Below are positions 10,232-59,960 of a stretch of 64,000 nt of DNA, in pieces. This stretch comes from Gemmatimonadota bacterium (GTDB taxonomy: Bacteria; JAAXHH01). The stretch covers positions 1 to 64,000 of the forward strand of contig VXTP01000005.1 of assembly GCA_009837395.1 (NCBI GenBank), given 5' to 3'. Position 1 is the stretch's first letter. Every line of letters begins with the position of its first letter. The notes under the pieces were generated by a model. The model ran no database searches and was not told where the DNA came from. It was given only the letters and a program-made list of their open reading frames with translations. Made by a program: the position numbers and the translations under genes.

Positions 10232-10239
10232 GATCCGGA

Positions 10240-42151: not shown

Positions 42152-42223
42152 TCCTCGGTAGCTCAATGGCAGAGCGGGTGGCTGTTAACCACTAGGTTGT
42201 TGGTTCGAATCCAACCCGAGGAG
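42152..42223 (+). tRNA. tRNA-Asn (anticodon GTT), site of integration
   Basis: This 72-nt tRNA has acceptor TCCTCGG / CCGAGGA, anticodon loop CTGTTAA (GTT), and T-arm TTGGTTCGAATCCAA. Its 3' end is the left attachment site of the following mobile element. Confidence 0.95.
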
Positions 42224-42224
42224 T
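42213..42224 (+). repeat. attL core, tRNA-Asn 3' end
   Basis: AACCCGAGGAGT, exact 12-bp match to 51408-51419. It overlaps the acceptor stem of tRNA-Asn, so insertion preserved the tRNA. Confidence 0.8.
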
Positions 42225-42230
42225 TTATTA

Positions 42231-42252
42231 ACCGACGCAAGTCGGTATTTTT
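42231..42252 (+). terminator. Terminator after tRNA-Asn, brought by the element
   Basis: ACCGAC GCAA GTCGGT (GNRA loop) then ATTTTTATT. It replaces the original tRNA terminator, now 9.2 kb away at 51463-51502. Confidence 0.75.
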
Positions 42253-42346
42253 ATTGAACTTACGATAACAAGAAAAAGTCGTTACAACATTCAATATAAC
42301 GAACAATTATCGGGGTTTTTCGAGATCCACGACGACCCGAAAAAAA

Positions 42347-42375
42347 TTGACATACTAGTTCTTTACGGGTATGAT
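42347..42375 (+). promoter_or_regulatory. Promoter for the AlpA-like gene
   Basis: TTGACA (42347-42352), 17-bp spacer, TATGAT (42370-42375): near-perfect sigma-70. The transcript would begin ~42382, leaving a ~130-base leader containing the hairpin at 42423-42485. Confidence 0.75.
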
Positions 42376-42422
42376 TAGGACAGAAAGGGACTAACCGAAC
42401 CCTACATCGAGTTATCCGGCGG

Positions 42423-42491
42423 CGGTCCGCCGGTATACCCTCAAAGAAAGGCGCCCATTGTGGGCAAAGGTATACTGGCGGACCGTTTTTT
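42423..42491 (+). promoter_or_regulatory. Nested hairpin with T6 tail in the alpA leader (attenuator-like)
   Basis: The 15-base arm 42423-42437 pairs with 42471-42485 (14 of 15), followed by TTTTTT (42486-42491). An inner stem GCCCA/TGGGC (42453-42465) sits in the loop. It lies ~22 bases before the alpA start, so it would terminate most transcripts unless overcome. Confidence 0.65.
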
Positions 42492-42512
42492 GTTTTCCGC
42501 CGGAGGTTCGAC

Positions 42513-42704
42513 ATGAGTAACGACCGGTTTGTTACAGTCCGTGACGTCCTCCAAATGACCCATTTGTCGAGGACGACAATATACCGTCTTATGGCGGAGG
42601 GGATATTCCCGAAACCGATCAAGGTCGGGTTACGAGCGGTACGGTGGAAAGAGAGTGAGGTTCAACGGTACATCGAAAGGTGTCCACGCGCCGAGGTCGG
42701 ATAG
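42513..42704 (+). CDS. AlpA-family DNA-binding protein (excisionase/regulator)
   Basis: This 63-residue protein is a MerR-like HTH: RFVTVRDVLQMTHLSRTTIYRLMAEGIFPKPIKVG...AVRWKESEVQRYI, the classic AlpA pattern. In phage satellites AlpA acts as an activator or excisionase that controls integrase and excision. It is the first gene on the plus strand, after a strong promoter and an attenuator-like hairpin. CGGAGG lies 8 bases upstream. Confidence 0.93.
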   Translation: MSNDRFVTVRDVLQMTHLSRTTIYRLMAEGIFPKPIKVGLRAVRWKESEVQRYIERCPRAEVG

Positions 42705-43409
42705 TTGTCCGGGTCTCCGACGTATCATTACCTCCCCTCGTTCGGTCGAGGTCGTCGCAACGATTACGCCGGGGCGATAGGCGGCTACATCTACGCCCGT
42801 CATCGGGACGGCGCGTCTCTTGATGAACCTTTCCGACTGTCGCCGAGGGACCTCGCCCGGAACTACGAGACGGACTCCGAGTCGATACGAACGGCGTTGA
42901 AACGTCTGTGTACCGAGACGGTGCGTTTCAAGCCCCTGCTCGAGAAAACAGGGCGATCCGAGTACCGTCTCACCCCAGAGGGCGTTTGTATCGTCGAGAA
43001 CGAAAAGTCACAGTCGTTCAGCGTCGTCGACCTCGTGTTCGGATTGACCCCGAGAGAGTCCGCAATAAAGAACACGAAAGCGAAGTATCCAGCAGTGGCC
43101 GCGAGGTGGTGGGGAGTGAAACTCCGTCAATGGTACAACATGAAAAAGCGGATACAGGTTACACTGGAAAAAGCGGATACAGGTTACACACAACAACCGG
43201 ATACAGGTTACACAGAAAGCGGACACAGGTTGCACCCGAGAGCGGACACAGGTTGCACCCAGACCCAGAAAGAGGGTTGTAGTATTTTGCCAGAGAAAAA
43301 CAGCCTTACGCCCGCGTACGCGTGCGGAGAAAGACCGGTTTCTCACGAAACGGGGAAAGACGAAATACGACTCTCGGACGACGCCTTGAGTCACCTCGGG
43401 GCGTTGTAG
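42705..43409 (+). CDS. Replication-initiator-like winged-helix protein containing iterons
   Basis: This 234-residue protein starts at a TTG directly after the alpA stop. Residues ~15-85 look like a winged-helix (LSPRDLARNYETDSESIRTALKRLCTE...EYRLTPEG), as in replication initiators of plasmids and satellites. I know no closer family. Bases 43148-43258 contain five iteron-like direct repeats within the coding sequence (separate entry). It is the most likely replication gene of the element, because no primase or polymerase is present. Confidence 0.7.
   Translation: MSGSPTYHYLPSFGRGRRNDYAGAIGGYIYARHRDGASLDEPFRLSPRDLARNYETDSESIRTALKRLCTETVRFKPLLEKTGRSEYRLTPEGVCIVENEKSQSFSVVDLVFGLTPRESAIKNTKAKYPAVAARWWGVKLRQWYNMKKRIQVTLEKADTGYTQQPDTGYTESGHRLHPRADTGCTQTQKEGCSILPEKNSLTPAYACGERPVSHETGKDEIRLSDDALSHLGAL
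43148..43258 (+). repeat. Five direct repeats (iteron-like) inside the rep-like gene
   Basis: GCGGAYACAGGTTRCAC at 43148-43164, 43173-43189, 43197-43213 (CCGG start), 43219-43235 and 43242-43258. Start-to-start spacings are 25, 24, 22 and 23, so they are read in three different frames (KRIQVTL, KADTGYT, SGHRLHP ...). That argues for selection on DNA, not protein: an origin bound by the initiator. Confidence 0.8.
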
Positions 43410-43512
43410 GGGACGAACCATGAAATACCGTGAATTCAGACGACGCGTCCTTTATATTCTCGATTGGGCACTTCAATTCACTTTGTAACCAATCCACAAG
43501 AAAGGCGGAACG

Positions 43513-43713
43513 ATGAGCGAAAGGCGCGAGACGTTAAACGAACGGTACTTCCGTAATGGACCGATCCGGCAGGGTAAATTTACTGACAGCGTTGTTTTTT
43601 GCGGTCGATATTGCGAACCGGAAATACTGGAAGTCATCAACGAATTGACGTTGACCGGTGATACGTTAGTGTGGACAGACAACCGGTCGCCCTACGTAGA
43701 CCATAAACCGTAA
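43513..43713 (+). CDS. Small satellite protein of unknown function
   Basis: 66 residues, MSERRETLNERYFRNGPIRQ... with two Cys (VFCGRYCEPE), no family recognised. It is preceded by an exact copy of the same leader (43496-43516, with AAAGGCGG) that stands before the gene at 43921, so both are probably translated from shared regulated starts. Confidence 0.6.
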   Translation: MSERRETLNERYFRNGPIRQGKFTDSVVFCGRYCEPEILEVINELTLTGDTLVWTDNRSPYVDHKP

Positions 43714-43727
43714 TTGGAGGCGGATCG

Positions 43728-43904
43728 ATGATGAGCAATGAAGAGCTCGAAAAAGGCATAGACGCCATGAGAAAAACGGGTCATGTCATGTCCATGCAAT
43801 TTGACGATGCCGTTGATTTGATAATTCAGGAACTTCGAGAGATACGTAAGTCTGTCGAAGATTTGCGGCAGGTGGTAGAGAGAAACCTGGATAACAAACC
43901 GTAA
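43728..43904 (+). CDS. Short helical protein (58 residues)
   Basis: Begins MMSNEELEKGIDAMRKTG (ATG 43728 or 43731) after GGAGGCGG; ends ERNLDNKP. It is almost all helical with heptad-like residues (IIQELREIRKSVEDLRQVVER), probably a coiled-coil. It ends 16 bases before the next gene. Its function is unknown. Confidence 0.6.
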   Translation: MMSNEELEKGIDAMRKTGHVMSMQFDDAVDLIIQELREIRKSVEDLRQVVERNLDNKP

Positions 43905-43920
43905 CAAGAAAGGCGGAACG

Positions 43921-44145
43921 ATGATTAAGTTATTGGTTTTCCTAAGTGACGGGGCCGGTGTCACGGTCCAGGTAGGACAACCCATGCCGGGCGGTGGGTC
44001 ACCGGTTGCGGCAATTACGAGGATGAACGACGGGACGAGTGCTTACCGTATCCAGCTCGAAAACCACGATGAGATCATAGTTGAAACGGGTGAGTATTCA
44101 GTAGCACCATACCAACAGGCTAACGTGGCGACGTCAGTGTATTAA
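43921..44145 (+). CDS. Small satellite protein of unknown function
   Basis: 74 residues, beta-rich (MIKLLVFLSDGAGVTVQVGQPMPGG...YRIQLENHDEIIVE). Preceded by the repeated AAAGGCGG leader (43904-43924). No domain recognised. Confidence 0.6.
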   Translation: MIKLLVFLSDGAGVTVQVGQPMPGGGSPVAAITRMNDGTSAYRIQLENHDEIIVETGEYSVAPYQQANVATSVY

Positions 44146-44148
44146 CCC

Positions 44149-44177
44149 TTGACCTAGCAGGAAACAGCGCTTAACTT
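44149..44177 (+). promoter_or_regulatory. Promoter upstream of the zinc protein/terminase genes
   Basis: TTGACC (44149-44154), 17-bp spacer, TAACTT (44172-44177): plausible start of the late-type packaging operon. Confidence 0.5.
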
Positions 44178-44227
44178 ACGTTTTGTAGTTCAAAATCACG
44201 GAGTATAGAAGTAGAGGCGGATTTGAT

Positions 44228-44270
44228 GGCGGTCCGGATAATCCCGGAGTGTCGTCTGTCCGCCTTTTTT
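44228..44270 (+). terminator. Weak hairpin with T6 tail near the start of the zinc protein gene
   Basis: GGCGG (44228-44232) pairs with CCGCC (44260-44264), with an inner CCGG/CCGG, followed by TTTTTT (44265-44270). The stem is short, so it may be a weak terminator or attenuator. It resembles the alpA-leader hairpin in position and T6 tail. Confidence 0.4.
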
Positions 44271-44512
44271 GTTGCCCGGAGGTCGAGGTCAACTACTACC
44301 GTTTCGATATTTGTTCCGACTGTGGTATCCGGTACAAGAAAACGAAGTACAGCGTCCGCGAGGTCTGTACGTCATGCTCGGCAAAGAGGCGTAGGGACCG
44401 CGAGCGTCAATGGGCTTACAAAAAAGGTCGGAAGTGTTCGGACTGCGGAATCGCCATAACTAACACGGCTAACCGGTGTAACAAGTGTAAGGGAAACATC
44501 TGCCAACGCTAA
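44249..44512 (+). CDS. Zinc-ribbon protein, start uncertain
   Basis: About 87 residues with four CxxC pairs (CSDCG, CTSCS, CSDCG, CNKCK), typical of paired zinc ribbons or a DNA-packaging or transcription accessory. The GTG at 44249 has a poor ribosome site. A well-placed ATG (44226, after GAGGCGG) is in a different frame and would need a -1 shift near the T6 run at 44265-44270 to reach the Cys-rich frame. Frameshift is only a possibility. It lies just before terminase, where a small terminase is often found, but nothing else shows that role. Confidence 0.55.
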   Translation: MSSVRLFCCPEVEVNYYRFDICSDCGIRYKKTKYSVREVCTSCSAKRRRDRERQWAYKKGRKCSDCGIAITNTANRCNKCKGNICQR

Positions 44513-44600
44513 CCGTATAGAGAGTGGGGTGGGTCCTCGCACTGCGCCGGCCCCTGAGGGCGGGAGAGCGTTGGGGGGTTATCTGCCTGTGTGTACGACC

Positions 44601-46157
44601 ATGAATCTATCCAAAGACAACGAACGCAACCTCCCGGACAACCTGCTCGAGTTCATACGGGTGCTTTCGATCACGTCCGGGGATCACCTCGGGGAAAAGG
44701 TCGAGGTCCTTCCGTATCAAGAACGGTTTATCCGGGGGACGTTCCGACCGGGGATTCAAACCGCGGCGTTGTCCATTGCCCGGGGGAACGGCAAGTCGAC
44801 GCTTGTCGGGTGGCTTGCCGATTCGGTCCTACTCCCTACGGGTCCCCTTCATCATCGAAACGCGGTCGTTATCGTTGCCGCGTCTTCCTTCGAACAAGGC
44901 GCGATCATCCACAAGGCCGTTGTCGATCAATTGCCGGACAAGGACAATCGCGAACGGTGGTCAATATGGGATTCGAACCGGTTGAGGATACGTTGCAAGG
45001 AATCCGGGGCGGAATTACGGGTCCTGTCTTTTAGTCCCGGATCAGCCCACGGCGTTATGGGCGGGAAACTGTTGCTTGCCGACGAGGTGGCGCAATGGCC
45101 GCGAAGTCAACGGGATAGAATGTGGACGGCCCTTGAATCGACGCTCGGGAAGACGCCGGGTTGTCGTCTCATTGCCATTTCGACCCGTCCCGACGACAAG
45201 GACAATCCGTTGTCCAAGTTACTGGACGGCGCGGCCGACTATGCCCTTGAGTTCCGGTCCCGAGCTGGTAAGGGGTGGGACAAGGATTCGGCGATCAGGA
45301 CGGCAAATCCCGCCCTTGACCATTTTCCCGCGCTTCGGGCCGCTATCGAACGCGATCGACGAATCGCCAAAGAGGACCCCGCGAAAATCCCCGCGTTCCG
45401 TGCTTACCGGCTCAATCAAGGGACGCCGGAGGGGGATACCCGCGACGTGGTTCTTACCGCCCATCAATACGCCGGGTTGGAAGATGAGACCGTAGACGTG
45501 GGAGACTACGTACTCGGGCTTGACCTTGCAGGCGGTCACGCTCAAAACGGAGTTGCCGCCGTGTCCCTCGACGCGGACCCGGACGGGCGCCACCACGTCG
45601 ACGCTTTCGCGGTATGGCCGGAAACGGTCAAGGTCAAGGAACGGTCCAAACGCGACGACCAGAATTATGCGGCCATGATAGCCGTCGACGATTTGATACA
45701 GGTCTCGGGACCTACGGTCGACGTCGACCAGGTGATAACCGAGGCAATGGCGCGTTGGGGACGTCCCGCTTGTGTCGTAACGGACTATTTCCGTATCAGC
45801 GAATCCCGCCACGTCTTGGAATCTCACGGGTATATCGAGGACGACGAGACGCTCATTTACCGCCGTTTCGGTTGGGGGGACGGGTCCGAGGACCTGCGGG
45901 GTTTTCGCCGTATGGTAGCGTCTAAATCGCTACGTTTCAGACGGTCGTTATTGCTACGGGCGTCCTTTTCGGTGGCGAGGACCATTTCCGACGCGTCCGG
46001 CAACGAGAAGATGGCAAAACTAACCGAGCGCGGGGGCCGGGGCGTCGACGATTGCGCGGCGGCGGCTGTGATTGCCGTTGCCGAGGTCAACAGACGATAC
46101 ACGACGCCGGTTACGGATCACGTTTATGTTGAGGATGTACCGGAGTATGCCTGGTGA
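44601..46157 (+). CDS. Phage terminase large subunit
   Basis: About 518 residues. The N-terminal ATPase has a terminase-type Walker A (ARGNGKST), Walker B LLLADE, and the C-terminal nuclease shows acidic residues in VLGLDLAGGHA, VVTDYFR and VDDCAAAAV (RNase H-like). It cuts and translocates DNA into procapsids. The ATG at 44601 is used here; a GTG at 44589 after GGGGGG (44573-44579) is a good alternative. It is the first head gene and is overlapped by the HNH gene. Confidence 0.92.
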   Translation: MNLSKDNERNLPDNLLEFIRVLSITSGDHLGEKVEVLPYQERFIRGTFRPGIQTAALSIARGNGKSTLVGWLADSVLLPTGPLHHRNAVVIVAASSFEQGAIIHKAVVDQLPDKDNRERWSIWDSNRLRIRCKESGAELRVLSFSPGSAHGVMGGKLLLADEVAQWPRSQRDRMWTALESTLGKTPGCRLIAISTRPDDKDNPLSKLLDGAADYALEFRSRAGKGWDKDSAIRTANPALDHFPALRAAIERDRRIAKEDPAKIPAFRAYRLNQGTPEGDTRDVVLTAHQYAGLEDETVDVGDYVLGLDLAGGHAQNGVAAVSLDADPDGRHHVDAFAVWPETVKVKERSKRDDQNYAAMIAVDDLIQVSGPTVDVDQVITEAMARWGRPACVVTDYFRISESRHVLESHGYIEDDETLIYRRFGWGDGSEDLRGFRRMVASKSLRFRRSLLLRASFSVARTISDASGNEKMAKLTERGGRGVDDCAAAAVIAVAEVNRRYTTPVTDHVYVEDVPEYAW

Positions 46158-46449
46158 CCCTTCGAGGTGGCCGTACAACACGGAACGATGGAAACAATTA
46201 CGCGACCGGAAACTTGCCCTTTCTCCTGTCTGTGAACGGTGCGAATCATGGCAGGATTTACACGTCCACCACAGGAAACCGCTTACGATGGACGAGCGAA
46301 TAAGCAAGGACATAGAGGCGTGTTTCCCTTCGGTCAGCGGGTTGGAAACCCTTTGCCGTTACTGTCACAGTCAGGAAACCAACAGTCCCGATAAAACCGG
46401 GTTCAAGGAACGCGCCGAATGGCGCAAATTTGCAGGGGGTACAAGTTGA
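46147..46449 (+). CDS. HNH endonuclease
   Basis: About 100 residues with the HNH pattern: CERCE, LHVHHRKPL (His core), and CRYCHSQE. In phages and capsid-forming satellites it helps terminase cut cos sites. Earlier in-frame ATGs (46126, 46135) exist; 46147 is chosen because it begins at the terminase stop. It overlaps the terminase by 11 bases, and its stop overlaps the capsid TTG start. Confidence 0.85.
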   Translation: MPGDPSRWPYNTERWKQLRDRKLALSPVCERCESWQDLHVHHRKPLTMDERISKDIEACFPSVSGLETLCRYCHSQETNSPDKTGFKERAEWRKFAGGTS

Positions 46450-47756
46450 AAAGGTCAGACAACATCAAGATCGAAATGAGCAAGGCGCGGGAACGTCTTG
46501 CGGTCCTGTCCGCGAAGGACGACGCGACCGACGAGGAAAAGGGGGAAATGAAGACCCTTACGGAGTCCTACGCGGATCTCGAGGCCCGATACCAAGCGGC
46601 GATTATCGCCGAGGACGAGGAATCGGCGGCGGCGGCCAAAGAGGAACCGGACGGACATCTCGACGCCGAGTCCCGCGAGTTTCACGAGAAGATCGTCCCC
46701 GAGGTCAACGCGGCCGACTACTTCACGGCGGCCGTCGATCAGACGCCGCTTGACGGCGCAACCAAAGAGTTCAGCGAGGCGCTGGGCGTCGACACTTCGA
46801 TAAAACACGTCGACGGCAAGATCGGCGTTTCGTTCCCGCTCTATATGCTCGACCCTCCGGGCGGCAAGGACGAGGAATACGCGGCAACGTCGCTCACAAT
46901 CGACACGATCCGGCGCGGCAACGCGTGGCTTGCCCGCGTCTTCCTCGACAAAGCGTCCGAGTATCTTGGGGTGACCCGCCGTATGGTTCCGAAGGGTGAA
47001 GCGACTTACCCCGTCATTTCGTCCGGCGCGAGTCCCGCGACGACGGCCGTCGGAACCGCGAAGGATGAGGAAACCTTGAACGCCGACGCGTCCGTCCTCG
47101 AACCGCGTTCGATCCGGTCGGGTTATCAGGTCTCGAACCGGGATTTGTACCGGCTCGGGGATGAGTACGAGGCTGCGCTCCGGCGCGACCTTAGAGACGC
47201 CCTCTCCGAGAGTATGGACTCCGAGATCGTCAACGGCGTTTCCGGCGAGATCAACGGGTTTCTGAACGATACCGACATCAGTAAACTCAAGTTGGACGGA
47301 ACCTCCGACGGCGCACAGGCGACCGAATCGACGGCCGCTCAATTCGTCGAGGCGATCACCGCGCAGATCGACGGCCGGTACGCCGGAGACACGGACGACG
47401 TGAAAGTCCTTGTCGCTCCCGAAGTCTTGCGGTGGTTGTGGAAGGTGGTCCGGGAACTCGGGACGACCGACTCCGTTCAGTTGTACAGTTTCATCAAGAA
47501 TCAAATGAACGTCATGGTCCGGGCGTCGGACCATATCGGGGCGGTCACCGGTAGTCAGTTTTACGCCCTCTACTGCAAGGCGCGCGGCAGTATGGGCGCG
47601 GCGATTCACGCAGTATGGAATGACGGAATGATTCTGGTCGACCCCTACGGGACGAACAAGACGCAGGGGTACACGTCTTTCTACATTTCCGGGTTTCACG
47701 ATTTTGCACTTGTCCGTCATCAGAACTGGGCGGTCCGGCGAGTGACGACCACTTAA
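46446..47756 (+). CDS. HK97-type major capsid protein with N-terminal delta domain
   Basis: About 436 residues from a TTG at 46446 behind GGGGG (46436-46440); ATG 46476 is a close alternative. Residues ~5-70 are a charged coiled coil (SKARERLAVLSAKDDATDEEKGEMKTL...), the delta domain cleaved by the prohead protease. The rest fits the HK97 fold: EVNAADYFTAAVDQTPLDGATKEFSEALGV, then VSNRDLYRLGDEYEAALRRDLRDALSESMDSEIVNG. This makes the shell. Confidence 0.9.
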   Translation: MKRSDNIKIEMSKARERLAVLSAKDDATDEEKGEMKTLTESYADLEARYQAAIIAEDEESAAAAKEEPDGHLDAESREFHEKIVPEVNAADYFTAAVDQTPLDGATKEFSEALGVDTSIKHVDGKIGVSFPLYMLDPPGGKDEEYAATSLTIDTIRRGNAWLARVFLDKASEYLGVTRRMVPKGEATYPVISSGASPATTAVGTAKDEETLNADASVLEPRSIRSGYQVSNRDLYRLGDEYEAALRRDLRDALSESMDSEIVNGVSGEINGFLNDTDISKLKLDGTSDGAQATESTAAQFVEAITAQIDGRYAGDTDDVKVLVAPEVLRWLWKVVRELGTTDSVQLYSFIKNQMNVMVRASDHIGAVTGSQFYALYCKARGSMGAAIHAVWNDGMILVDPYGTNKTQGYTSFYISGFHDFALVRHQNWAVRRVTTT

Positions 47757-47767
47757 GAGGTGTTGTA

Positions 47768-48748
47768 ATGTCCGAACACCTTTATTTCGACGTTGAATAC
47801 GCCAAAGGCGGACGCGCGGTCGAGGGAACCGCCGTCCGCTACGGCGACAAGGCCGCAAGGCGAACAGGGGGCGGGGTATACTACGACACAATCCGTCCCG
47901 GTTCGCTCAAAATCGACGACGCGACCTTGAACATCCAGCATGACCGTAAACGTCTATTGGGGCGGACGAACGGGGGCGGGTTGTCCTTTCAGGATGGACC
48001 GGACCGCCTCCGGGTCCGCGCCGAGTTTGCCGAACCCTTGACGCGGGACGCGGCCGACGCGCTCCAAATGCTCGAAAAGCGTATCTTGAGGGCGTGGTCC
48101 CTCGAGTTGTCGATCAGGGACTACAAGATCGACGACGCGGAACGGACCCGCGTCATAACCGGGGCGGACGTTACGGGGATTGCCCTTGTCGACCGTCCGG
48201 GTTTTACAGGGTCGGCCGCCGTGTTGCGCGAGTTTTCCGACTATCAGGACGGGGCGTTTGAAGGGTCCTACAAGTACAACCAGGACGAAACCATTTCCGA
48301 CGAACCGGGCCGGGCGGTCGTCCGCAAACGAAAGTTCCGACCGGGGGCGTTCCGGCAGTCGATACAGGACCCCGGACACGAGGTCGGGCTATTGACGTCC
48401 CGGAATCCCAACGACGCGGTGGCAAGCAAGAGGTCCGGGACACTGTTCCTCGAGGATGATGACGAAACGCTCAACGTCACCGCTTCGAGCGTCGCGGATA
48501 CGGCCGCATGGCGCGACCTGCTCGCCAAACGCGACGCAGGCCTTGCCCTTGCCCTTCAACCCGTCATCAAGGCTGATAGCGGAGAATATGAGGACATACC
48601 GGAAAACCCCGGTGACGGGACCGCGCTTGTCCGAACGTACTCGGCCGTTAAACTGCTTGGATTCATGGTCACCCCGAGGCCGACAAAGGGAAGTGAAAGC
48701 GAGGTTAACTTGTGGGCGCAATCTCCACTTGGATTAACGGTGCATTAG
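47768..48748 (+). CDS. HK97-family prohead protease with duplicated, degenerate second domain
   Basis: This 326-residue protein matches the prohead protease fold. The first domain has NIQHDRKRLLGRT (His) and RAWSLELSI (Ser). The second half repeats the same plan: FRPGAFRQSI, LLTSRNPNDAVAS, and AGLALALQPVI, but the His and Ser positions are changed, so it looks catalytically dead. The second domain could scaffold or bind the capsid. Its last 37 bases overlap the portal start. Confidence 0.8.
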   Translation: MSEHLYFDVEYAKGGRAVEGTAVRYGDKAARRTGGGVYYDTIRPGSLKIDDATLNIQHDRKRLLGRTNGGGLSFQDGPDRLRVRAEFAEPLTRDAADALQMLEKRILRAWSLELSIRDYKIDDAERTRVITGADVTGIALVDRPGFTGSAAVLREFSDYQDGAFEGSYKYNQDETISDEPGRAVVRKRKFRPGAFRQSIQDPGHEVGLLTSRNPNDAVASKRSGTLFLEDDDETLNVTASSVADTAAWRDLLAKRDAGLALALQPVIKADSGEYEDIPENPGDGTALVRTYSAVKLLGFMVTPRPTKGSESEVNLWAQSPLGLTVH

Positions 48749-49761
48749 CATGGTTTCGCGGGGGCGGTTATTACCTCGTGTCGAACGCCGGGTCTTTCGA
48801 CGGTACGGTGTCCGTTCCGGCGATTGATTCGGCTACGAGGATGACTGCGTATACGATCAGTCGCGGCAAGGTGACCGTGACCGGGGACGCGGCCGAATAC
48901 TTGGCCATCCTTCAGCGCTCGCGGTTCATCCAGTTGCTTGTCCAAGACCTGCTTTTGTACGGCAACGCGGTTTACGAGATCGACACGTCGGAAATGCCGA
49001 CGATCAATCTACGCCGGGCTGCGTCGTATGAGATACGGGGAAAGAACAAGGTCCGGTACAAGTTGGAAATATCCATGCCGGACGGTCAGACGACCCGGAA
49101 CGTATCGGCCGACGGGGTGTTACACGTCCGAATCGGGGAACTTTCAACGAGTCCGTGGCACGGCGTTTCTCCGTTCGCGGGTTGCGAGTTGGTTCGGATT
49201 CTCGAACGTCAATTGAGGATTCAAGGGTCTTGGCCGTCTCAACGTCTTTTCACCATGCCGGGGCCTGAATACGCGAGCGCGAGACCGTACAAGAGCGGAC
49301 AACCCTCGGCCGAACCCGTCGTCAAAGGCGACTCCGAGGTGTCAAACGACACTTTCGGGAAACCCGGACAACGGGTCGTAAGAAACCTCAACAGTCGCGG
49401 GGGTCCTATCCCCGTCCCGAAGGTCGACGCGACATTCGAACCGTCGCAATGGGCAACGGTCATGCGGGGCGATCTTGTCGACGAAGTTTACGACTGCGTC
49501 GGTATCCCGCCAGTCCTTCGAGGTGACGCGACGCCGGGTATGGCGTACAAGACCGCCCTTAGCGAATGGATAGACGGACACTTACAACCGCTATGCAACG
49601 GAATTGCCGAGCAATTGTCGGAGGACCTCGAGGTCGACGTTAAGATCGACCTGGCGCCGGCGAAGATCCCGAGCGTCAACGATCAGTCGAAAGCGTTGTC
49701 GGAGTTAGTCAGCGCGGGGGTTTCTTTAGAGGACGCGAAACGGGTTGTGGGTCTGTCATAA
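48712..49761 (+). CDS. Phage portal protein
   Basis: 349 residues of the HK97 portal type: RSRFIQLLVQDLLLYGNAVYEI, VLHVRIGELSTSPWHGVSPFAGCELV, and VYDCVGIPPVLRGDATPG. The portal is the dodecameric ring for DNA entry and tail attachment. It starts at GTG 48712, inside the protease gene. It is shorter than many portals, as in satellites, and is placed after the capsid and protease, an unusual order. Confidence 0.88.
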   Translation: MGAISTWINGALAWFRGGGYYLVSNAGSFDGTVSVPAIDSATRMTAYTISRGKVTVTGDAAEYLAILQRSRFIQLLVQDLLLYGNAVYEIDTSEMPTINLRRAASYEIRGKNKVRYKLEISMPDGQTTRNVSADGVLHVRIGELSTSPWHGVSPFAGCELVRILERQLRIQGSWPSQRLFTMPGPEYASARPYKSGQPSAEPVVKGDSEVSNDTFGKPGQRVVRNLNSRGGPIPVPKVDATFEPSQWATVMRGDLVDEVYDCVGIPPVLRGDATPGMAYKTALSEWIDGHLQPLCNGIAEQLSEDLEVDVKIDLAPAKIPSVNDQSKALSELVSAGVSLEDAKRVVGLS

Positions 49762-49819
49762 AGGCGCGTTGAGTTTGGAAAAACTCAATAAAAACACAAA
49801 AAAAGTGAAAAAGATATAC

Positions 49820-49846
49820 AAAAGATACACAAAATACGTATCTTTT
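49820..49846. promoter_or_regulatory. Operator-like inverted repeat
   Basis: AAAAGATAC (49820-49828) pairs with GTATCTTTT (49838-49846), 9-bp arms directly before the -35 box at 49848. A shorter direct relative (AAAGATATAC) precedes it. It may be the binding site of a regulator or integrase. Confidence 0.5.
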
Positions 49847-49847
49847 G

Positions 49848-49877
49848 TTGACAACGTCTGTTAGTGGGGATTAGTGT
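49848..49877 (+). promoter_or_regulatory. Promoter of the satellite RNA candidate
   Basis: TTGACA (49848-49853) and TTAGTG/TAGTGT (49871-49877) with a ~17-18 bp spacer. Start ~49884. The -10 is poor. Confidence 0.45.
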
Positions 49878-49883
49878 TAAGGT

Positions 49884-50022
49884 AGGTATCGCGGGAACGA
49901 CGCGGCAAGACACAGGTTATTAAGCCTGGCCTTCAAGGGGCAACGTCTTACCCTCCCAAGCATCGTTCCCGCTATTTCGGGATGGTTATACGATCGGCGT
50001 CCCGGTCGTGCCATCCCTCTTT
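49884..50022 (+). ncRNA. Candidate structured noncoding RNA of the satellite
   Basis: A 10-bp perfect stem GCGGGAACGA (49891-49900) / TCGTTCCCGC (49963-49972) closes a multi-branch region: AAGAC/GTCTT (49907-49911 with 49945-49949), CAGG/CCTG (49913-49916 with 49925-49928), and GCCTT/GGGGC. A long terminator hairpin follows. No ORF covers it. I recognise no known RNA family. Confidence 0.6.
49979..50022 (+). terminator. Strong terminator closing the RNA candidate
   Basis: GGGATGG (49979-49985) pairs with CCATCCC (50011-50017), with inner CGATCGG/CCGGTCG, followed by TCTTTT. It faces the converging integrase gene. Confidence 0.8.
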
Positions 50023-50079
50023 TCATTCCTACACCCTATGTTTTAAGGCGCTGATTGTCAACTCTTTTCCTTCCTGATT

Positions 50080-51219
50080 TCAAACATTCCTCAAGAACTC
50101 GTCCCATTGAACCATAAGTGACGTGCGTTTCTCGAGCAGGTCCGACCGGGAGTACGCTTGTTCGACCGCGTTACCGACCGTATGAGCGAGGGCCATTTCG
50201 CAAACCTCGCGGGGAATATCGGTACGCTCGCTCGCCCACGTGCGGAATGATGTACGGAAACCGTGTACGGTCGTCTTATCGGCAAGGCCCAATTCCTCAA
50301 GGTTCTTAACCAACGCCCTGCTCGACATAGGATGGCGGGGTTTCATCAGCGAGGGGAAAATGAGATTCGAGTCGTTGCGGAGCGGTCTGGCGTCCTTGAG
50401 GACTTCGAGGGCGGACTTCGAGAGGGGTACGCGGTGGGGTTTCCCGTTTTTCATTCTCTCGCCCGGAATCTCCCATGTCGACGACGCCTCGTCTATCTCG
50501 TCCCAGGTCGCCTCCCTCACCTCGTTCGAACGCGCGGCCGTGTATACCGCGAACAACATACACAGTCGGGCCGGTAACGAGGACACCGACCGTATACGAT
50601 TCACGGCGTCGGGCATTTCCCGGAAATCGAGCGCCCGGAAATTCTCTTTGACCTTCGGCATGGAAGGTAGGGCGGGATTGAGACGGTCGTCCGCGACGTT
50701 CTCTCGGACGTGACCGTCGACCCTGCAATGGTCAAGGACGGTTTTGATTCGTTGACGGACCCGCCGGGCGGTTTCTGTTTTCGTGGTCCATATCGGTTTG
50801 AGTAGGTCCATGACATGTTGTTGTTTGATACGGTCGACCGGAACGTTCTCGATTGCCGGGTACGCGTGTTTCTTTAGTATCCTCATCCAATCGCGGGTAT
50901 GTTGTTCGGACCGGAACGACGGAGCGAGAGCGACGTGTACCTTTTCGGCCGCCTCTCGGAACGTCGGGACCGACCCTCGCAACGGGTTGACCCCGTCTGA
51001 TATCTTGACGCGGTTTTCGAACGCCCGGCGTTTCGCCTTGTCGAGAGAGACAACCGGAAACGACCCGAGACCGAGGTTGTGACGCCGGCCGTCGATGACG
51101 ACCCGTTGAACCCATGACTTACGGCCAGAGGGTTTCACGTACAGGTACAACGTATCGTCGACCCGGTAGAAACCGGGTTTTGTCGTTGACCTACATTCTC
51201 GGGCGTTTAATTTTCTCAT
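50080..51219 (-). CDS. int: Tyrosine-type site-specific integrase
   Basis: 379 residues of the P4-like integrase class: an N-terminal arm-binding part (KSWVQRVVIDGRRHNLGLG), core-binding helices, and the catalytic domain with LPARLCMLFAVYTAARSNEVREATWDEID (Arg I), HRVPLSK, HGFRTSFRTWASER (His-x-x-Arg) and QAYSRSDLLEKR with the nucleophilic Tyr. It inserts the element into tRNA-Asn. ATG 51219 is chosen because GGGGA lies upstream; a longer frame to 51327 would overlap the arm sites. Confidence 0.95.
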   Translation of the reverse strand: MRKLNARECRSTTKPGFYRVDDTLYLYVKPSGRKSWVQRVVIDGRRHNLGLGSFPVVSLDKAKRRAFENRVKISDGVNPLRGSVPTFREAAEKVHVALAPSFRSEQHTRDWMRILKKHAYPAIENVPVDRIKQQHVMDLLKPIWTTKTETARRVRQRIKTVLDHCRVDGHVRENVADDRLNPALPSMPKVKENFRALDFREMPDAVNRIRSVSSLPARLCMLFAVYTAARSNEVREATWDEIDEASSTWEIPGERMKNGKPHRVPLSKSALEVLKDARPLRNDSNLIFPSLMKPRHPMSSRALVKNLEELGLADKTTVHGFRTSFRTWASERTDIPREVCEMALAHTVGNAVEQAYSRSDLLEKRTSLMVQWDEFLRNV

Positions 51220-51407
51220 AGCGAGTCCCCATTTTGGGGTACGACTCCCGGTCAAGGATTCGAACCCATAACCATTTGTTATAACATCATGTACGGTATT
51301 ATACGTTACAATACGGTACAAGCGCAACAGGAAAAATCACCCGATACGCCTATGGGGTAGGGGTTTTGTTACAATCCGGTACAGGGCGGTACTCGGATGA
51401 TTAAAGA
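51220..51407. other. Integrase leader and att-proximal region
   Basis: Between int and attR. It holds two 16-bp arm-type repeats (51305-51320, 51368-51383) and, on the minus strand, a T-arm-like GGTTCGAATCC (around 51256-51266) that resembles a tRNA 3' end but is not a full tRNA. Confidence 0.5.
51305..51383. repeat. Two 16-bp direct repeats, candidate integrase arm sites
   Basis: GTTACAATACGGTACA (51305-51320) and GTTACAATCCGGTACA (51368-51383), 15 of 16 identical, 63 bp apart, between int and attR. Tyrosine integrases bind such arm sites. Confidence 0.6.
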
Positions 51408-51419
51408 AACCCGAGGAGT
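51408..51419 (+). repeat. attR core
   Basis: AACCCGAGGAGT, exact copy of the tRNA-Asn 3' end core at 42213-42224. Confidence 0.8.
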
Positions 51420-51603: not shown

Positions 51604-52809
51604 TTGCCTTCAACTTTAACGTGGATTGATCACGATCCTGCAGCTCGTGAACAGGCAATGCGCGTACTTGCGCTTTTCCAAGAAAGAGAAAGCCGAGACG
51701 AACTCGGGTTAGGTGCGGTCAGGGATTCCTTCTCGGACGCGCTGTTCCCCGGTACAAGTACGCTTCAAACCCGCATAAGGTATATGCTCTTTATTCCCTG
51801 GGTTTACAAGGCTCTTGAAGACAAGTGCATAGGTCCGCCGGAATTCGCCGCAAAGGCACGCCAATCGGAATTGGAACTCATCGATCCGCTTTTAGCAAAT
51901 TCAGACCATGACGGCGTTTTCGGAAGGATTGCCAGCAAAGCGTTGCAACGATTACCCAGCTCGGTCTACTGGTACGGCCTTGAAGCCTGGGGGATCCGGA
52001 AAATCAAGTGTTCTCAGTATCAATATCATAGATACATAGATCAGGTATACAATGCTCGCGATGTCTCTCGTCACCGTATAGAGAAGGATGACATTCCGGA
52101 AAGCGAGACCCAGACCTGGCATTCTCGCCTGCCCGACCCACCTGCTGGTTTTCCTCAAGATATCGGTTTTGAACTGGAACCCGAAGAAGCGAAGTTTCTG
52201 CAGGATCGGTTGGTACAATCTCAAAAGGGCAGCCTGCTGGCTCATCTGGCACTCAATCACCAACCCGTTCATTGCGATTACATCTGGGAACATCCGGATT
52301 TACACCTATTTCCTCCGGAACAAAGTAAGCTTGTTGGATACGCCGAGTTTTTCTCAACACTCATGCAAGGTGCCGCGTTTCTATATAACCTTATGCTGGC
52401 GGAGCTTGCGGGGCGCGACGTTCTAATAGACGAACACCGAAAAAACCTGGATGAATGGCAAGAACGACTTCAAAGCGCTCCTGCGAGTAATCTATCCCTT
52501 GTAGACTTGTGGGCACTGACCGCCGGAAGGGGACACAAGATCACAAAGAGGACAAAGGGCTTCGTCTCTGACTGGAATCAGCGTGTAGTGGCAACGTGCG
52601 GTGATGTTGGTGATGATACCGAATGTAGAACGCTTATCAAGACCCGTGAACGGTTCCTCAAAGGAGTTCGATCTCGTTTCACGAATCCAAGAGCGAGGGA
52701 CCAGTGGACAGGTTACGCGGGCGTCAGCCGAATGACCTACCGGTGGCCAAATGTAAGAACGCTGCTCGCGGACCTACACGATGGATTGGCCGAAAACAAT
52801 CATGCTTAA
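51604..52809 (+). CDS. DUF6361-family protein, first gene of an Azaca-like defence operon
   Basis: 401 residues beginning at a TTG (51604) behind GAGGA. The N-terminus (LTWIDHDPAAREQAMRVLALFQERESRDELGLGAVRDSFSDALFPGTSTLQTRIRY) is the typical DUF6361 beginning. The rest is helical with no catalytic motif. DUF6361, PLD and helicase genes occur together in defence islands. By my memory the three-gene Azaca (ZacABC) system has this layout, so it is probably ZacA-like; I could not verify this. Confidence 0.8.
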   Translation: MPSTLTWIDHDPAAREQAMRVLALFQERESRDELGLGAVRDSFSDALFPGTSTLQTRIRYMLFIPWVYKALEDKCIGPPEFAAKARQSELELIDPLLANSDHDGVFGRIASKALQRLPSSVYWYGLEAWGIRKIKCSQYQYHRYIDQVYNARDVSRHRIEKDDIPESETQTWHSRLPDPPAGFPQDIGFELEPEEAKFLQDRLVQSQKGSLLAHLALNHQPVHCDYIWEHPDLHLFPPEQSKLVGYAEFFSTLMQGAAFLYNLMLAELAGRDVLIDEHRKNLDEWQERLQSAPASNLSLVDLWALTAGRGHKITKRTKGFVSDWNQRVVATCGDVGDDTECRTLIKTRERFLKGVRSRFTNPRARDQWTGYAGVSRMTYRWPNVRTLLADLHDGLAENNHA

Positions 52810-54604
52810 TCCAGATGCCCGTAGCCTCTACACCGAAGCTGTAACGTCACCTCCGGGTTATGTGTTTGACCAGGCCATAGCGACAACATACAGCCTGGAT
52901 CCTGCCACGGTTCTTTCACTTCCCGCACATATCGCACTCGCAGAACGTTCATCTTCGACTGACATAGACCCGATAAAGCTCCTCGAATCGCTGCGCCGGC
53001 TATCCAATCGATTCAGTATATTCGTTGACCATGCGCACATATTGCCGCCCTCGGGTGGCAATGTCCTTTTTGGTCTGTTGGAATCCATGGTTCTACCGAC
53101 CAGGGCACCGCGAGGAGGGGAGTTTCACCCCAAGATCTGGGTACTGCGCTTCGTTCAACCGGATACGGATGAATCGCCTTTGATCCGGCTGCTCGTTATG
53201 TCCCGCAACATCACGTATGACCGATCATGGGACATCTCGCTGCAATTGGAGGGACGACCTGGACGACGATTCTTTGCTGCCAATCGGCCGTTGGGAGAGT
53301 TTCTCAGCGCGCTACCGTCGTATAGCACGCAACCGGTGGGATCAGAGAGAATAGATCAGATAACCCGGCTTGCGGAGGAAATAAGAAAGACGAAATGGGA
53401 GTTACCACAGGGATATGAGCGTGTTTCGTTTCACGTCTTGGGTACCAGAAAAACGCCTTGGTACCCTTCGCAGTCAGACCGGATGGCAGTAATCTCTCCA
53501 TTCATTACCGATGGCGCGCTGTCCTGGCTAAGCGACCGGACGGCGAAGCTGGTCGCTGTCGTATCCAGGCCAGACGAATTGGAGAAACTAAGTTCAGAAA
53601 CTCTTCAATTGACGGGCAAATGGTTTACGCTTGACGAAGCGGCAGAGACGGAAGATGGAGAGGAACCAGAAAAGCTCGACACGGTTGGGCTGCACGCTAA
53701 GGCGTATGTGACTGAGAAGGGCTGGTGGACAACACTCTATACTGGTTCAGCCAATGCGACATCCGCCGCGCTTCTGCATCGCAGCAACACCGAGATTTTG
53801 GTCGAAATGTCCGGAAAAACGAGTCAGGTAGGCGGGATCGATACGTTGCTAGGTGAGAACGGCCTGAACAACATTTTGAACGAATACGTGCAACCGGATG
53901 AAGTACCAGATATTGACGAAGAGGTATTCACGGCCCAGCAGGCTCTTGAAAATGCAAGAAGATCACTTACAAAAGCGGGACTTAAACTCAGATGTGAGGC
54001 CGATGGTGAGACCTGGAAACTCTCACTTATCGCTACCGAGCCTTTGTCTCTTTCGGGTATCTCCAGTTTCAAAGCGTGGCCCATTACGGTATCGGAGGAC
54101 CTAGGCTCGGACGTGTTTGGCCTGACACATTTCGGGGATGCCGAGATTGGTAACTTTGCCACCGAATCGGTGACCGGACTTATTGCCTTCGAATTCGTAT
54201 CTGATATCAAGAAGTTGTCCTTAAGGATGGTTCTGAACCTGCCCGTGGAGGGACTGCCGGAGAATCGGGACAATGCCATCTTCAGGCTTGTCTTAAAGAA
54301 CCGGGAAGGATTTCTGAGGTACATCCTTCTAATTCTTGGGGAATACACAGGTGAGGTCCTCAATAAAGGTGGTCTTTTCCTTTTCGGGAATGGTACCAGC
54401 CCCTGGGCAGAAGGCTTTACAGGCGAAGTACCCATCCTCGAGGAACTGGCAAGGGCGTTCAGCCGAGATCCCGACAAGCTCAAGGACATCGCTGAAGTTG
54501 TTGAGCGTTTACTCCGTGATGATGCACACAATCAGATCATCCCGGAGCAATTTACCAAGATGTGGAAGGTGTTCGAAACCGCTATGGAGGAAGCTGATAA
54601 GTGA
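52802..54604 (+). CDS. Phospholipase-D-like nuclease of the defence operon
   Basis: 600 residues with two HKD-type motifs: FHPKIWVLRF ... MSRN (residues ~110-145) and GLHAKAYVTEKG ... GSAN (~295-320). These are the two halves of a PLD active site; in defence systems PLD domains usually act as nucleases. The start at 52802 (MLNPDARSLYTEAV) overlaps the upstream stop; the earlier ATG at 52781 is also possible. The C-terminus (~400-600) is of unknown fold. Its stop overlaps the helicase start by 4 bases. Confidence 0.85.
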   Translation: MLNPDARSLYTEAVTSPPGYVFDQAIATTYSLDPATVLSLPAHIALAERSSSTDIDPIKLLESLRRLSNRFSIFVDHAHILPPSGGNVLFGLLESMVLPTRAPRGGEFHPKIWVLRFVQPDTDESPLIRLLVMSRNITYDRSWDISLQLEGRPGRRFFAANRPLGEFLSALPSYSTQPVGSERIDQITRLAEEIRKTKWELPQGYERVSFHVLGTRKTPWYPSQSDRMAVISPFITDGALSWLSDRTAKLVAVVSRPDELEKLSSETLQLTGKWFTLDEAAETEDGEEPEKLDTVGLHAKAYVTEKGWWTTLYTGSANATSAALLHRSNTEILVEMSGKTSQVGGIDTLLGENGLNNILNEYVQPDEVPDIDEEVFTAQQALENARRSLTKAGLKLRCEADGETWKLSLIATEPLSLSGISSFKAWPITVSEDLGSDVFGLTHFGDAEIGNFATESVTGLIAFEFVSDIKKLSLRMVLNLPVEGLPENRDNAIFRLVLKNREGFLRYILLILGEYTGEVLNKGGLFLFGNGTSPWAEGFTGEVPILEELARAFSRDPDKLKDIAEVVERLLRDDAHNQIIPEQFTKMWKVFETAMEEADK

Positions 54605-57600
54605 CAACGTGGTCGAAAGACACCGAACGTGTCCTTGCCAGATTAAAGGATTTCCAACGTCGCACTGCCGAATACGTATCCCGACGATTCTATCTGGATA
54701 CAGACACCACCGATCGTTTTCTCGTAGCTGATGAGGTCGGTCTGGGAAAGACGCTTGTAGCGCGGGGTATTATCGCTCAAACAATCGAGCACCTTAAGCA
54801 GATAGAAGATCGAATCGACATCATATACATCTGTTCCAATACCAGTATAGCGTCACAGAACGTACATCGTTTAAATGTCAGTGGTTTCCAGGAGTTTATA
54901 CAGCCCACACGACTTTCACTACTGCCTTTACGTATAAAAGGCATACGGAAGAATCCAGAGAATTACGTAAGCCTCACGCCGGGCACAAGTTTCGATCTTA
55001 AATCACGAGAAGGTAGAGTCGAAGAGCGAGCACTGATACATCAATTACTGAAAGGAAAGCTTAAAAAGTCAGGTGTCAGTCCTGCCGGGTTTAGACGTTT
55101 GCTTCAATGCCGAGTGCGCGACGACAGTTGGAGCCGGCGGATAAAAGAACGCATACAACCTGATGAAGAGTTAGCCAAGAAGTTTGAGCATAGCGTCATC
55201 AATGATTCGGAGTTCCTACGGCGAATCGCTGAGTTTTGTTCGAAATCGAGAAGACGTGTATTGTGGAACAACCCGGAAAGGTTAAAACTTGTCGCCGAAT
55301 TACGATACCGTCTCGCCGAGATCAGTATCGATGTGCTGGAACCTGATCTAATCATCCTGGATGAGTTTCAGCGGTTCAAGAACCTACTCGACAAAAACAA
55401 CCCGGAATCTCGACTTGCTCAGAAGTTGTTTGGGTACCCTCGGGTAAAGGTTCTACTATTGTCAGCCACACCCTATAAAATGTTATCACTTGATCACGAA
55501 CAGGATGACGATCATTACCCGGACTTTTTGAAAACATTGGGATTTCTGTTCAATGATTCCGAATCGATCTTGGACGTTATCAAAGGGGAAATCCAGGCTT
55601 TCAGGCAATCTTTGTTTCAGATTGGATCCGTCAACGATTCTGCGATATCAAATGCGCGAGATGACCTTCAATCAAGACTCTTGCGAGTAATGTGTCGAAC
55701 CGAAAGGGTGGGGAAAACTCATTCCCTGGATGCAATGCTCTCTGAATCCCGTGATAAGCCGGCATTGCGCCCCGATGATTTGCACGAGGCGGTCCTGTCC
55801 GACAAAATCGCTTCAGTCATAGGAGCACGCGACATCATCGAGTATTGGAAATCAAGTCCATATCTCATCAACTTTCTCAGGCGCTATGAATTCCGGCACA
55901 AGCTGGAGGAGCAGTGTCTGGATCCAGGCGATGAACTCATTTCCGCATTGAACGCGAACACCAATCGCCTGCTGCGAAAAGACGATATTCAATCATATAA
56001 CAAGGTATCACCGTCGAACCCGAGAATGAGGCGACTTTTCTCTCTCACGATTGACCAGGGACTGTGGAAAATCCTCTGGATCCCACCGTCCATGCCATAC
56101 AGCACACCCGAAGGACCCTATGCCGATGTCAAAGAGGTCACAAAGTACCTGACCTTTTCCGCGTGGAACGTTGTGCCGGATGCCATTGCAACGCTCTGCT
56201 CCTACGAGGCGGAGCGGAAGATGCTCTCCGAGTTACCCAAAAAGTTTTATCATGACAAGCTCTATGAAGAGTTGCGTCCATTACTGCGATACGCACGTAA
56301 CGCGGACGGACGATTGGCCGGGATGTCAGTTCTGATACTGCTGTACCCAAGTCCCACTCTGGCCGACCTGGTAGATCCTTTGCTCCTCTCTATGATCCAT
56401 GGTGAAAAAGGCCCTATTCCATCCGACGTATTAATCGAGAAAACCGAGAAAATACTGAAGCCGCACCTGGACACATTAACCGAAGGGACCCCGGATACCG
56501 GACCGGAAGACCAACGATGGTATTGGGCCGCTCCGGCGCTTCTTGATGGGAATCGGTTTCCGAACGTGTTGAACTGGCTGGTCGATGAGACCAACGGCTG
56601 GCGCACTATATCGATAGAAGGACACGCAGAAAGAGGCGACCGATTCGCGGAGCACCTGGAGCTTTTCGCGAAGGCGATGAACAAGGATTTCGAACCACCA
56701 CTGGGACGCCCACCCGCCAACCTCGTCAAGATAATCAGCAAGGTGGCCGTGTCGGCACCTGGGGTATGCGCTCTACGGGCATTAAGGAGACAGGCTCCAA
56801 CCCTCGAATGGGACACGGAAGCGCTTCTTCACGGGGCGGCAAGTATATCAGAGGGATTCAGAACCCTGTTCAATCTTCCAACAAGCATCGCACTCCTTCG
56901 AGGAGACCAAACTGATTCTCCTTACTGGCAACTCGCATTACAGCATTGCTTCGAAGGCAATATCCAATCCCTGCTCGATGAACAAGGTCATTGTCTCGTC
57001 GAATCGCTAGGTGTCATCGACGAATCAGCGAGCGAGCGGGTAATTGCTATAGGTGATGCCATCGGATCTTCGTTATCTATCAGAACCTCGCAGTTGCATT
57101 TGGATGAAGTGCGTGTAAATCCGGAAGAAAGAAAGATTGAGCTTGAACCTTACAGCACGCGCTGTCGTTTCGCCCTGCGTTTTGCCGAATTGAAAGACGA
57201 AAGAGGAGAAACCTTCGCCCGGGCGGACATGGTCAGGGACGCGTTTAACTCTCCATTCAGGCCGTTCGTCCTTGCGTCGACATCAATCGGACAGGAGGGT
57301 CTGGATTTTCACACATGGTGTCATTCGGTGATCCACTGGAATCTGCCCAGTAACCCGGTGGATCTGGAACAGCGGGAAGGCCGGATTCACCGTTACAAAG
57401 GACACGCGGTCAGGAAGAACATTGCGCTATCCTATGGTCTGAACGAGCTGAGGAATAAGTGGAATCGAAAGGGCGATCCATGGCAGTTCATGTTTGAATC
57501 GGCCAGATCGGATCGGCAACCTGAAGCGGACGATTTGATTCCATATTGGCTTTATGAAGTCGAGGGGGGCGCGAGAATCGAGCGACGTGTCCCGGTTCTC

Positions 57601-57783
57601 GCGTATAGCAAGGACGAGGCGCGATTTCACCGCCTTAAGAAGATGCTTGCGGTTTACCGCCTGGTCTTCGGTCAGCCGAGGCAGGAAGATCTACTTGAGT
57701 ACCTGGCAGGCAGGATGGACGAAGAGCAACTTGAAAGCAGTGATCTGGATAAGTGGCGCGTGGTGCTGGAACCTCCATCTTAG
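54601..57783 (+). CDS. SF2 helicase of the defence operon
   Basis: 1060 residues. Walker A is DEVGLGKT (residue ~43), Walker B LDEFQRF, motif III SATPYKM, and motif VI QREGRIHRYKGHAVRK, a SNF2/DEAD-like SF2 helicase. The middle ~500 residues lack recognised domains. GTG start within TGA of the PLD gene indicates tight coupling. It is large for a helicase alone and presumably senses or remodels foreign DNA for the PLD nuclease. Confidence 0.9.
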   Translation: MTTWSKDTERVLARLKDFQRRTAEYVSRRFYLDTDTTDRFLVADEVGLGKTLVARGIIAQTIEHLKQIEDRIDIIYICSNTSIASQNVHRLNVSGFQEFIQPTRLSLLPLRIKGIRKNPENYVSLTPGTSFDLKSREGRVEERALIHQLLKGKLKKSGVSPAGFRRLLQCRVRDDSWSRRIKERIQPDEELAKKFEHSVINDSEFLRRIAEFCSKSRRRVLWNNPERLKLVAELRYRLAEISIDVLEPDLIILDEFQRFKNLLDKNNPESRLAQKLFGYPRVKVLLLSATPYKMLSLDHEQDDDHYPDFLKTLGFLFNDSESILDVIKGEIQAFRQSLFQIGSVNDSAISNARDDLQSRLLRVMCRTERVGKTHSLDAMLSESRDKPALRPDDLHEAVLSDKIASVIGARDIIEYWKSSPYLINFLRRYEFRHKLEEQCLDPGDELISALNANTNRLLRKDDIQSYNKVSPSNPRMRRLFSLTIDQGLWKILWIPPSMPYSTPEGPYADVKEVTKYLTFSAWNVVPDAIATLCSYEAERKMLSELPKKFYHDKLYEELRPLLRYARNADGRLAGMSVLILLYPSPTLADLVDPLLLSMIHGEKGPIPSDVLIEKTEKILKPHLDTLTEGTPDTGPEDQRWYWAAPALLDGNRFPNVLNWLVDETNGWRTISIEGHAERGDRFAEHLELFAKAMNKDFEPPLGRPPANLVKIISKVAVSAPGVCALRALRRQAPTLEWDTEALLHGAASISEGFRTLFNLPTSIALLRGDQTDSPYWQLALQHCFEGNIQSLLDEQGHCLVESLGVIDESASERVIAIGDAIGSSLSIRTSQLHLDEVRVNPEERKIELEPYSTRCRFALRFAELKDERGETFARADMVRDAFNSPFRPFVLASTSIGQEGLDFHTWCHSVIHWNLPSNPVDLEQREGRIHRYKGHAVRKNIALSYGLNELRNKWNRKGDPWQFMFESARSDRQPEADDLIPYWLYEVEGGARIERRVPVLAYSKDEARFHRLKKMLAVYRLVFGQPRQEDLLEYLAGRMDEEQLESSDLDKWRVVLEPPS

Positions 57784-57977
57784 CATTACCCGGCCCGCGA
57801 CAACAACATCTACTGCTTAGTCCTGTCTAGGCGACCGACTTCGACCTCTGGCCAACGCCCTTCGTGCTTCCCACCTTCGCACAGTGCCTCGCCGGTCCAA
57901 CCCGTTAGCGCCAGATCCTCCATAGAAACAATCAACAGTACCTTACGGCTCATGTCGTCCGGAATATGAACGAGCAC
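57784..57977 (-). pseudogene. Decayed 3' fragment of a duplicated gene
   Basis: This stretch, immediately after the helicase stop, is similar over ~190 bases to the 3' part of the intact gene at 59043-59756 (shared words CAGTGCCTCGCCGGTCCA / CAGTGACTCGCCGGTCCA, GCGCCAGATC, CGTCCGGAAT). It has no usable frame and ends at the dehydrogenase gene. It is in the same orientation as the intact gene. It is probably the relic of a duplicated chromosomal gene truncated when the defence operon inserted. Confidence 0.8.
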
Positions 57978-58928: not shown

Positions 58929-59042
58929 AGTCTGGCTCCTTCCTGAATCAATACTGTATATACCGCCTTATTGACCGCCTTCAGACGTTGACTTTATTAC
59001 TCAAAGCAAAAGCTTAGAATGCAGCACTTGTACACTTCAGCA

Positions 59043-59756: not shown

Positions 59757-59960
59757 CGGCCGGACCTTTTTCTTCGTACTGCATCACCATATCAAATACA
59801 TCATTATCAGAGAACTTGGTATTGTGGTCAAAACCGATAGGTGGTTATTGGAGGTCGTCAGGACTGCATGTTGCTGCAGAATGGTTGGATTTAGGTAGGT
59901 TCTTAGTTTCGGAGATGGTTGGCTTATGAAATGTCTGAGAGGACAAACGGAAGCTACAAC

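Follow-up and report, generated by a model that had tools for sequence, protein, structure and literature searches.

The 318-bp gap between two convergent genes of a 9.2-kb integrated element, portal (+, ending at 49761) and integrase (−, ending at 50080), holds a strongly folding segment that we regard, with confidence about evenly balanced, as a structured 3′-end region where two convergent transcripts meet. Stems, two back-to-back terminator-like elements and convergent genes are all present, and a hairpin with a U- or T-rich tail after each of the two genes, within 318 bp, argues for this reading. From the sequence we infer termination and RNA accumulation in the following manner. The rightward portal transcript, or a shorter one starting near 49884, would end at the hairpin and U-tail at 50017–50024, and the leftward integrase transcript would cross the segment and end at the AT-rich hairpin 49848–49818 and its T-rich tail (about 49818–49808). 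The branched core would then sit in a roughly 215-nt overlap and could form in both RNAs, where it would most likely separate the opposed transcripts and protect their 3′ ends, with a stable plus-strand RNA of about 140 nt as a likely by-product.

The features used below, by position in the window (the whole stretch of DNA analysed, 64,000 nt), are the following.

42213–51419, no strand: integrated element, 9.2 kb, with the 12-nt direct repeat AACCCGAGGAGT at both ends
48712–49761, plus strand: portal gene, with Pfam and PHROG portal matches, upstream of the segment and convergent with the integrase gene
49808–49848, minus strand: AT-rich hairpin resembling a terminator, followed by a T-rich tail, where the integrase transcript would end (terminator scan, fold); the same DNA is an 11-bp dyad
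49809–49848, no strand: three copies of AAAAGATAY, those at 49809 and 49820 direct and 11 bp apart, the third inverted (motif count)
49848–49877, plus strand: weak promoter candidate, TTGACA (49848–49853), 18 nt and TAGTGT (49872–49877), below the promoter-scan threshold
49877–50026, minus strand: 49-aa ATG ORF spanning the segment, probably non-coding (codon score, shuffles)
49884–50024, plus strand: candidate structured RNA made up of the branched core and the terminator-like hairpin, with a predicted 5′ end (MFE; no Rfam match)
49891–49900, plus strand: 5′ arm of the perfect 10-bp outer stem (fold, inverted-repeat count)
49907–49949, plus strand: inner 5-bp stem (49907–49911/49945–49949) holding hairpins 49913–49928 and 49929–49941 (fold)
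49909–49919, plus strand: a sixth exact occurrence of GAYACAGGTTR, the iteron core, which is otherwise found five times at 43151–43255
49963–49972, plus strand: 3′ arm of the outer stem, which together with 49961–49962 is complementary to GCGGAACGATG, present where ORFs 43513 and 43921 start
49979–50023, plus strand: terminator-like hairpin (49979–50017, 16 bp, bulged) with UCUUUU tail (folding energy)
50080–51327, minus strand: tyrosine integrase gene, with a likely start near 51219, convergent with the portal gene

Structure of the portal–integrase gap

From left to right the gap consists of an A-rich stretch, the AAAAGATAY repeats and dyad, TTGACA, the branched core and the terminator-like hairpin. 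The 139-nt segment folds with an MFE of −64.1 kcal/mol, shuffled sequences averaging −42.7 (z −5.73), and none of 200 dinucleotide shuffles was as good; structure so far beyond shuffles favours a structured 3′-end region. On the plus strand the core and the distal hairpin each beat their own shuffles (z −4.9 and −5.5, respectively), and of the five places in the 64 kb with perfect inverted repeats of at least 10 bp and a loop of at most 70, two are inside this gap. An earlier note, made from the sequence alone, had described a perfect 10-bp outer stem enclosing a multi-branch structure and followed by a strong terminator. The stem is there, 49891–49900 pairing with 49963–49972, and in the predicted fold it encloses the 5-bp inner stem and two small hairpins. 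Also present is the hairpin 49979–50017 with its UCUUUU tail (−25.9 kcal/mol, z −5.5), a G+C-rich hairpin with a U tract at once after it, as in intrinsic terminators, where plus-strand transcription would be expected to stop. A strict terminator scan listed the minus-strand hairpin 49848–49818 and left the plus-strand one unlisted, its stem being bulged. Two points count against a meeting point of two transcripts: the other two terminator-like hairpins of the element carry T6 tracts, stronger tails than UCUUUU, and termination by itself could do without a branched core of 91 nt closed by a perfect 10-bp stem.

Folding leaves the strand of the RNA ambiguous, because the branched core is stabler on the minus strand (−44.3 kcal/mol with a 13-bp outer stem, versus −38.2 kcal/mol with a 10-bp outer stem on the plus strand), whereas the distal hairpin is stabler on the plus strand (−25.9 versus −20.5 kcal/mol). 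Two halves favouring different strands are what would be expected where two convergent transcripts overlap, and a core that folds on both strands, better on the minus, beside a distal hairpin that folds better on the plus, supports the proposed junction of portal and integrase transcripts. In having hairpins with U-rich tails in both orientations between convergent genes, the region also resembles bidirectional intrinsic terminators; the 82-nt branched core between its two terminator-like hairpins is additional.

The minus-strand structure could instead belong to the integrase mRNA and limit integrase by 3′-end processing, a reading that we consider quite unlikely. Lambda sib/tI, likewise structured and sited directly beyond the 3′ end of an integrase gene, is a known precedent (PMC5300877). 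The position agrees, the minus-strand core (49974–49888) lying about 105 nt past the int stop, and the core is stabler on that strand; however, the stem of the segment is 13 bp long and branched, and int stands alone, facing portal; a second promoter from which transcription would run through the site, such as lambda has, is not known here. A stem of 13 bp is short for RNase III, and the int relatives in the same genus lack the structure.

The earlier note had also stated that no ORF covers the segment, which is not strictly so, since the 49-aa minus-strand ORF (49877–50026) spans it, though this ORF is not codon-like. Its codon score is −0.12, compared with 0.25 ± 0.17 for the element genes, such an ORF is present in 18% of shuffles, and no Pfam match was found for it. 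That the segment is a minus-strand gene for a small protein (49 aa, or less from a shorter start at 49963) with an incidental fold appears highly improbable: the ATG ORF does cover the whole segment, and on the minus strand GCGGGAACGATG looks similar to the sequence at which ORFs 43513 and 43921 start, but the coding statistics speak against it and a chance fold at z −5.7 is unlikely.

Upstream repeats, promoter candidate and possible targets

The shorter motif AAAGATAY occurs three times in the 64 kb, all three in this gap, and the AAAAGATAY cluster is possibly a protein-binding site. The second direct repeat and the inverted third copy form a perfect dyad. What had been described as a 9-bp operator dyad is thus real as a dyad and longer than stated, with arms of 11 bp (49818–49828/49838–49848), and read on the minus strand this DNA gives the AT-rich terminator-like hairpin and its T-rich tail. 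The promoter-like sequence noted beside it fared similarly: the −35 is a perfect TTGACA at 49848 on the plus strand, but the −10 matches at best three of six positions. It may be a weak promoter for the segment, independent of portal and integrase. The want of a good independent promoter argues for transcripts arriving from the two flanking genes; on the other side, a perfect −35 with phased repeats next to it has the look of a regulated promoter.

The stretch 49961–49972 (CAUCGUUCCCGC), which takes in the 3′ arm of the outer stem, could form 11 base pairs, one C bulging out, with GCGGAACGATG; the latter belongs to a 21-nt repeat that covers the start codons of both ORF 43513 and ORF 43921. 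The match has a p of 0.005–0.045 individually and of about 0.07 family-wise after correction for 12 start regions, and the full-length RNA duplex against 150-nt windows of the element did not rise above controls. Antisense pairing with early ORF starts, as predicted from sequence complementarity, is suggestive only. These observations bear on a dedicated small RNA, in which the promoter and an upstream operator (49809–49853) would give a 140-nt plus-strand RNA ending at 50023 that represses the early small ORFs through 49961–49972, the foremost alternative, which we rate as possible yet rather improbable. It gains from the perfect TTGACA beside three phased copies of a motif confined, within the 64 kb, to this spot, from a start, body and terminator that fit together, and from the pairing with both start codons through their common repeat, the ORF 43513 start window ranking 4th of 525 windows by binding energy. 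Its difficulties are the −10, the corrected p value, the cost of about 16 kcal/mol of exposing an arm locked in the outer stem, and the start of ORF 43921, bound no better than others once folding is counted; no homologue of the RNA was found either. The bolder version, a new family of satellite small RNAs with an operator-controlled promoter, silencing early small ORFs through the start-region repeat as an immunity or timing switch, we consider rather unlikely.

The segment might otherwise act as DNA, for example as a second site for replication control or for binding a protein, in which case its dyads would be RNA stems in appearance only. The replication origin of P4 is such a two-part arrangement, with ori and crr. 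Here, an exact sixth copy of the iteron core lies at 49909–49919, and the AT-rich stretch carries the phased repeats (49809–49848). The resemblance to the iterons is, however, limited to the 11-nt core of a single copy, a chance match at the percent level after the fact; relatives examined for lone iteron copies showed no comparable one, adding little either way; and the distal hairpin has G-U pairs and a U-tail, as suits an RNA. We judge a DNA site very unlikely. The borderline antisense match and the lone 11-nt iteron core are the only functional leads, and the roles in helper exploitation, packaging or copy number that the earlier note had proposed for the RNA find no direct support.

Searches for homologues

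As the earlier note had anticipated in recognising no known family, the Rfam search that it proposed gave no match in the segment with covariance models at the gathering threshold and up to E = 5, and thus no family match that would refute it; the permissive search returned only a chance match to mir-981 (12.7 bits against a cut-off of 51). DNA homologues of the segment were absent from 95 other genomes, the same genus included, and from phages and plasmids. One weak genome match (G083) fell within a coding gene resembling a dihydrolipoamide acyltransferase and was set aside as chance. A single-sequence covariance model run on 288 genomes found the window itself only, beyond weak chance matches, and on about 150 loci gathered by TerL or integrase similarity it found nothing convincing; such a model is weak, so that distant relatives of the RNA may be missed. 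The exact stem-pair pattern had no occurrence in IMG/VR, and the inner-hairpin pattern occurred in 79 IMG/VR contigs, as expected by chance for a short palindrome in so large a collection. With no homologue in 287 other genomes, about 150 loci, phages and plasmids, there is nothing to compare for compensatory changes.

A tRNA or tmRNA was rejected, ARAGORN and Rfam giving no match in the segment, and so was a MITE, the segment being single copy in its own genome. The segment has no known family, but its kind (structured intergenic RNA or satellite terminator region) is already known, and it should not be labelled a new RNA family without expression, conservation or covariation.

The host element and its relatives

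The copies of AACCCGAGGAGT that bound the element lie at the 3′ end of tRNA-Asn (42213–42224) and at 51408–51419. Between them are genes for AlpA (42513), small ORFs, TerL (44529), HNH (46072), capsid (46419), S78 protease (47768), portal (48712) and integrase (50080–51327, −); no tail genes were recognised in the element. The gene at 42705–43409 has no family match and contains five internal 23-nt iterons (43142–43258). It is a putative replication protein gene, a function suggested by the repeats, and the iterons within this putative initiator gene are a probable replication origin. An identical 21-nt repeat, ACAAGAAAGGCGGAACGATGA, lies at 43496–43516 and 43904–43924 (+), over the start codons of two small ORFs, and ORF 43728 is preceded by a related start region.

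In the fold scan of the 64 kb the portal–integrase segment was among the strongest, yet it was beaten by the alpA leader at 42421, which ranked top. This leader (42347–42500, +) has a strong promoter, TTGACA-17-TATGAT at 42347, and an 18-bp stem hairpin (42422–42486) with a T6 tract directly before alpA; it looks like an attenuator or a P4-type immunity leader. A second terminator-like hairpin (44213–44267, +, z −5.6) with a T6 tract (to 44273) precedes the packaging genes, and the two together (44213–44273) are a possible early/late switch.

Judged by its genes, the element resembles a capsid-encoding, satellite-like island. With cf-PICIs it shares the form of a small integrated island with an integrase, AlpA and its own TerL, HNH, capsid, protease and portal genes and no tail genes, that is, the gene content by which these islands are recognised. 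At 9.2 kb it is smaller than cf-PICIs, which average 14 kb (PMC10803314), and it differs from them in its order (TerL-HNH-capsid-protease-portal), in the integrase inverted at the far end, and in a host from a small, poorly sampled phylum, represented by 16 genomes in the collection searched. Beyond attR, proteins matching the PADLOC models ZacA, ZacB and ZacC are encoded at 51604–57783 (+), followed by a protease matching IetS at 59961–62468 (−); by these matches, the genes at 51604–62468 appear to be a defence island adjoining the element.

The same packaging genes in the same order, 25–41% identical, were found in one same-genus contig (L017) and in IMG/VR contigs such as L022, which ends beside tRNA-Asn. 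The gene set is shared by L022, L027 and L030; TerL in L030 and the capsid gene in L027 are each divided between the two ends of the contig, which points to circular free forms. Gaps after portal in L022, L025 and L027–L030 had no structured counterpart recognisable, as judged by eye only. Same-genus integrases (about 45–53% identical) sit in other layouts, in L255 and L256 with the integrase followed by a co-directional ORF, and no such structure was present at the loci of these integrase relatives. That relatives with other gene orders lack the structure counts in favour of two convergent transcripts meeting here. At 9474–10616 (−) of L256, next to alpA and tRNA-Leu, lies a same-genus integrase that has decayed, being broken by several stop codons; by its sequence it appears to be a degraded relative of the integrase module.

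Discussion

Two known satellite RNAs invite comparison with the segment. The PLE IIR transcript of Vibrio cholerae phage satellites is a non-coding RNA between inverted repeats with antisense similarity to the leaders of several of the element's own ORFs (PMC7567579), and the segment is a candidate for a similar arrangement. It differs in lying at a convergent portal/integrase junction, and its antisense signal is borderline (family-wise p about 0.07). The P4 CI RNA is processed from a replication-operon leader and causes premature termination (PMC4825925); like this and other C4-type immunity RNAs, which are short, structured and pair with complementary early sequences, the segment is short and structured, and its pairing is predicted. 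As a positional analogue of P4 CI RNA, the alpA leader (42347–42500) is better than the segment.

If the segment is a shared 3′ end only, it would represent ordinary gene punctuation in a compact element. If it is a regulator, it would add further RNA control in phage satellites beside P4 CI RNA and PLE IIR, in a lineage with almost no experimental data. More solid is the placing of a compact capsid-encoding, satellite-like island, with a divergent same-genus relative and distant IMG/VR relatives that include contigs about 10 kb long.
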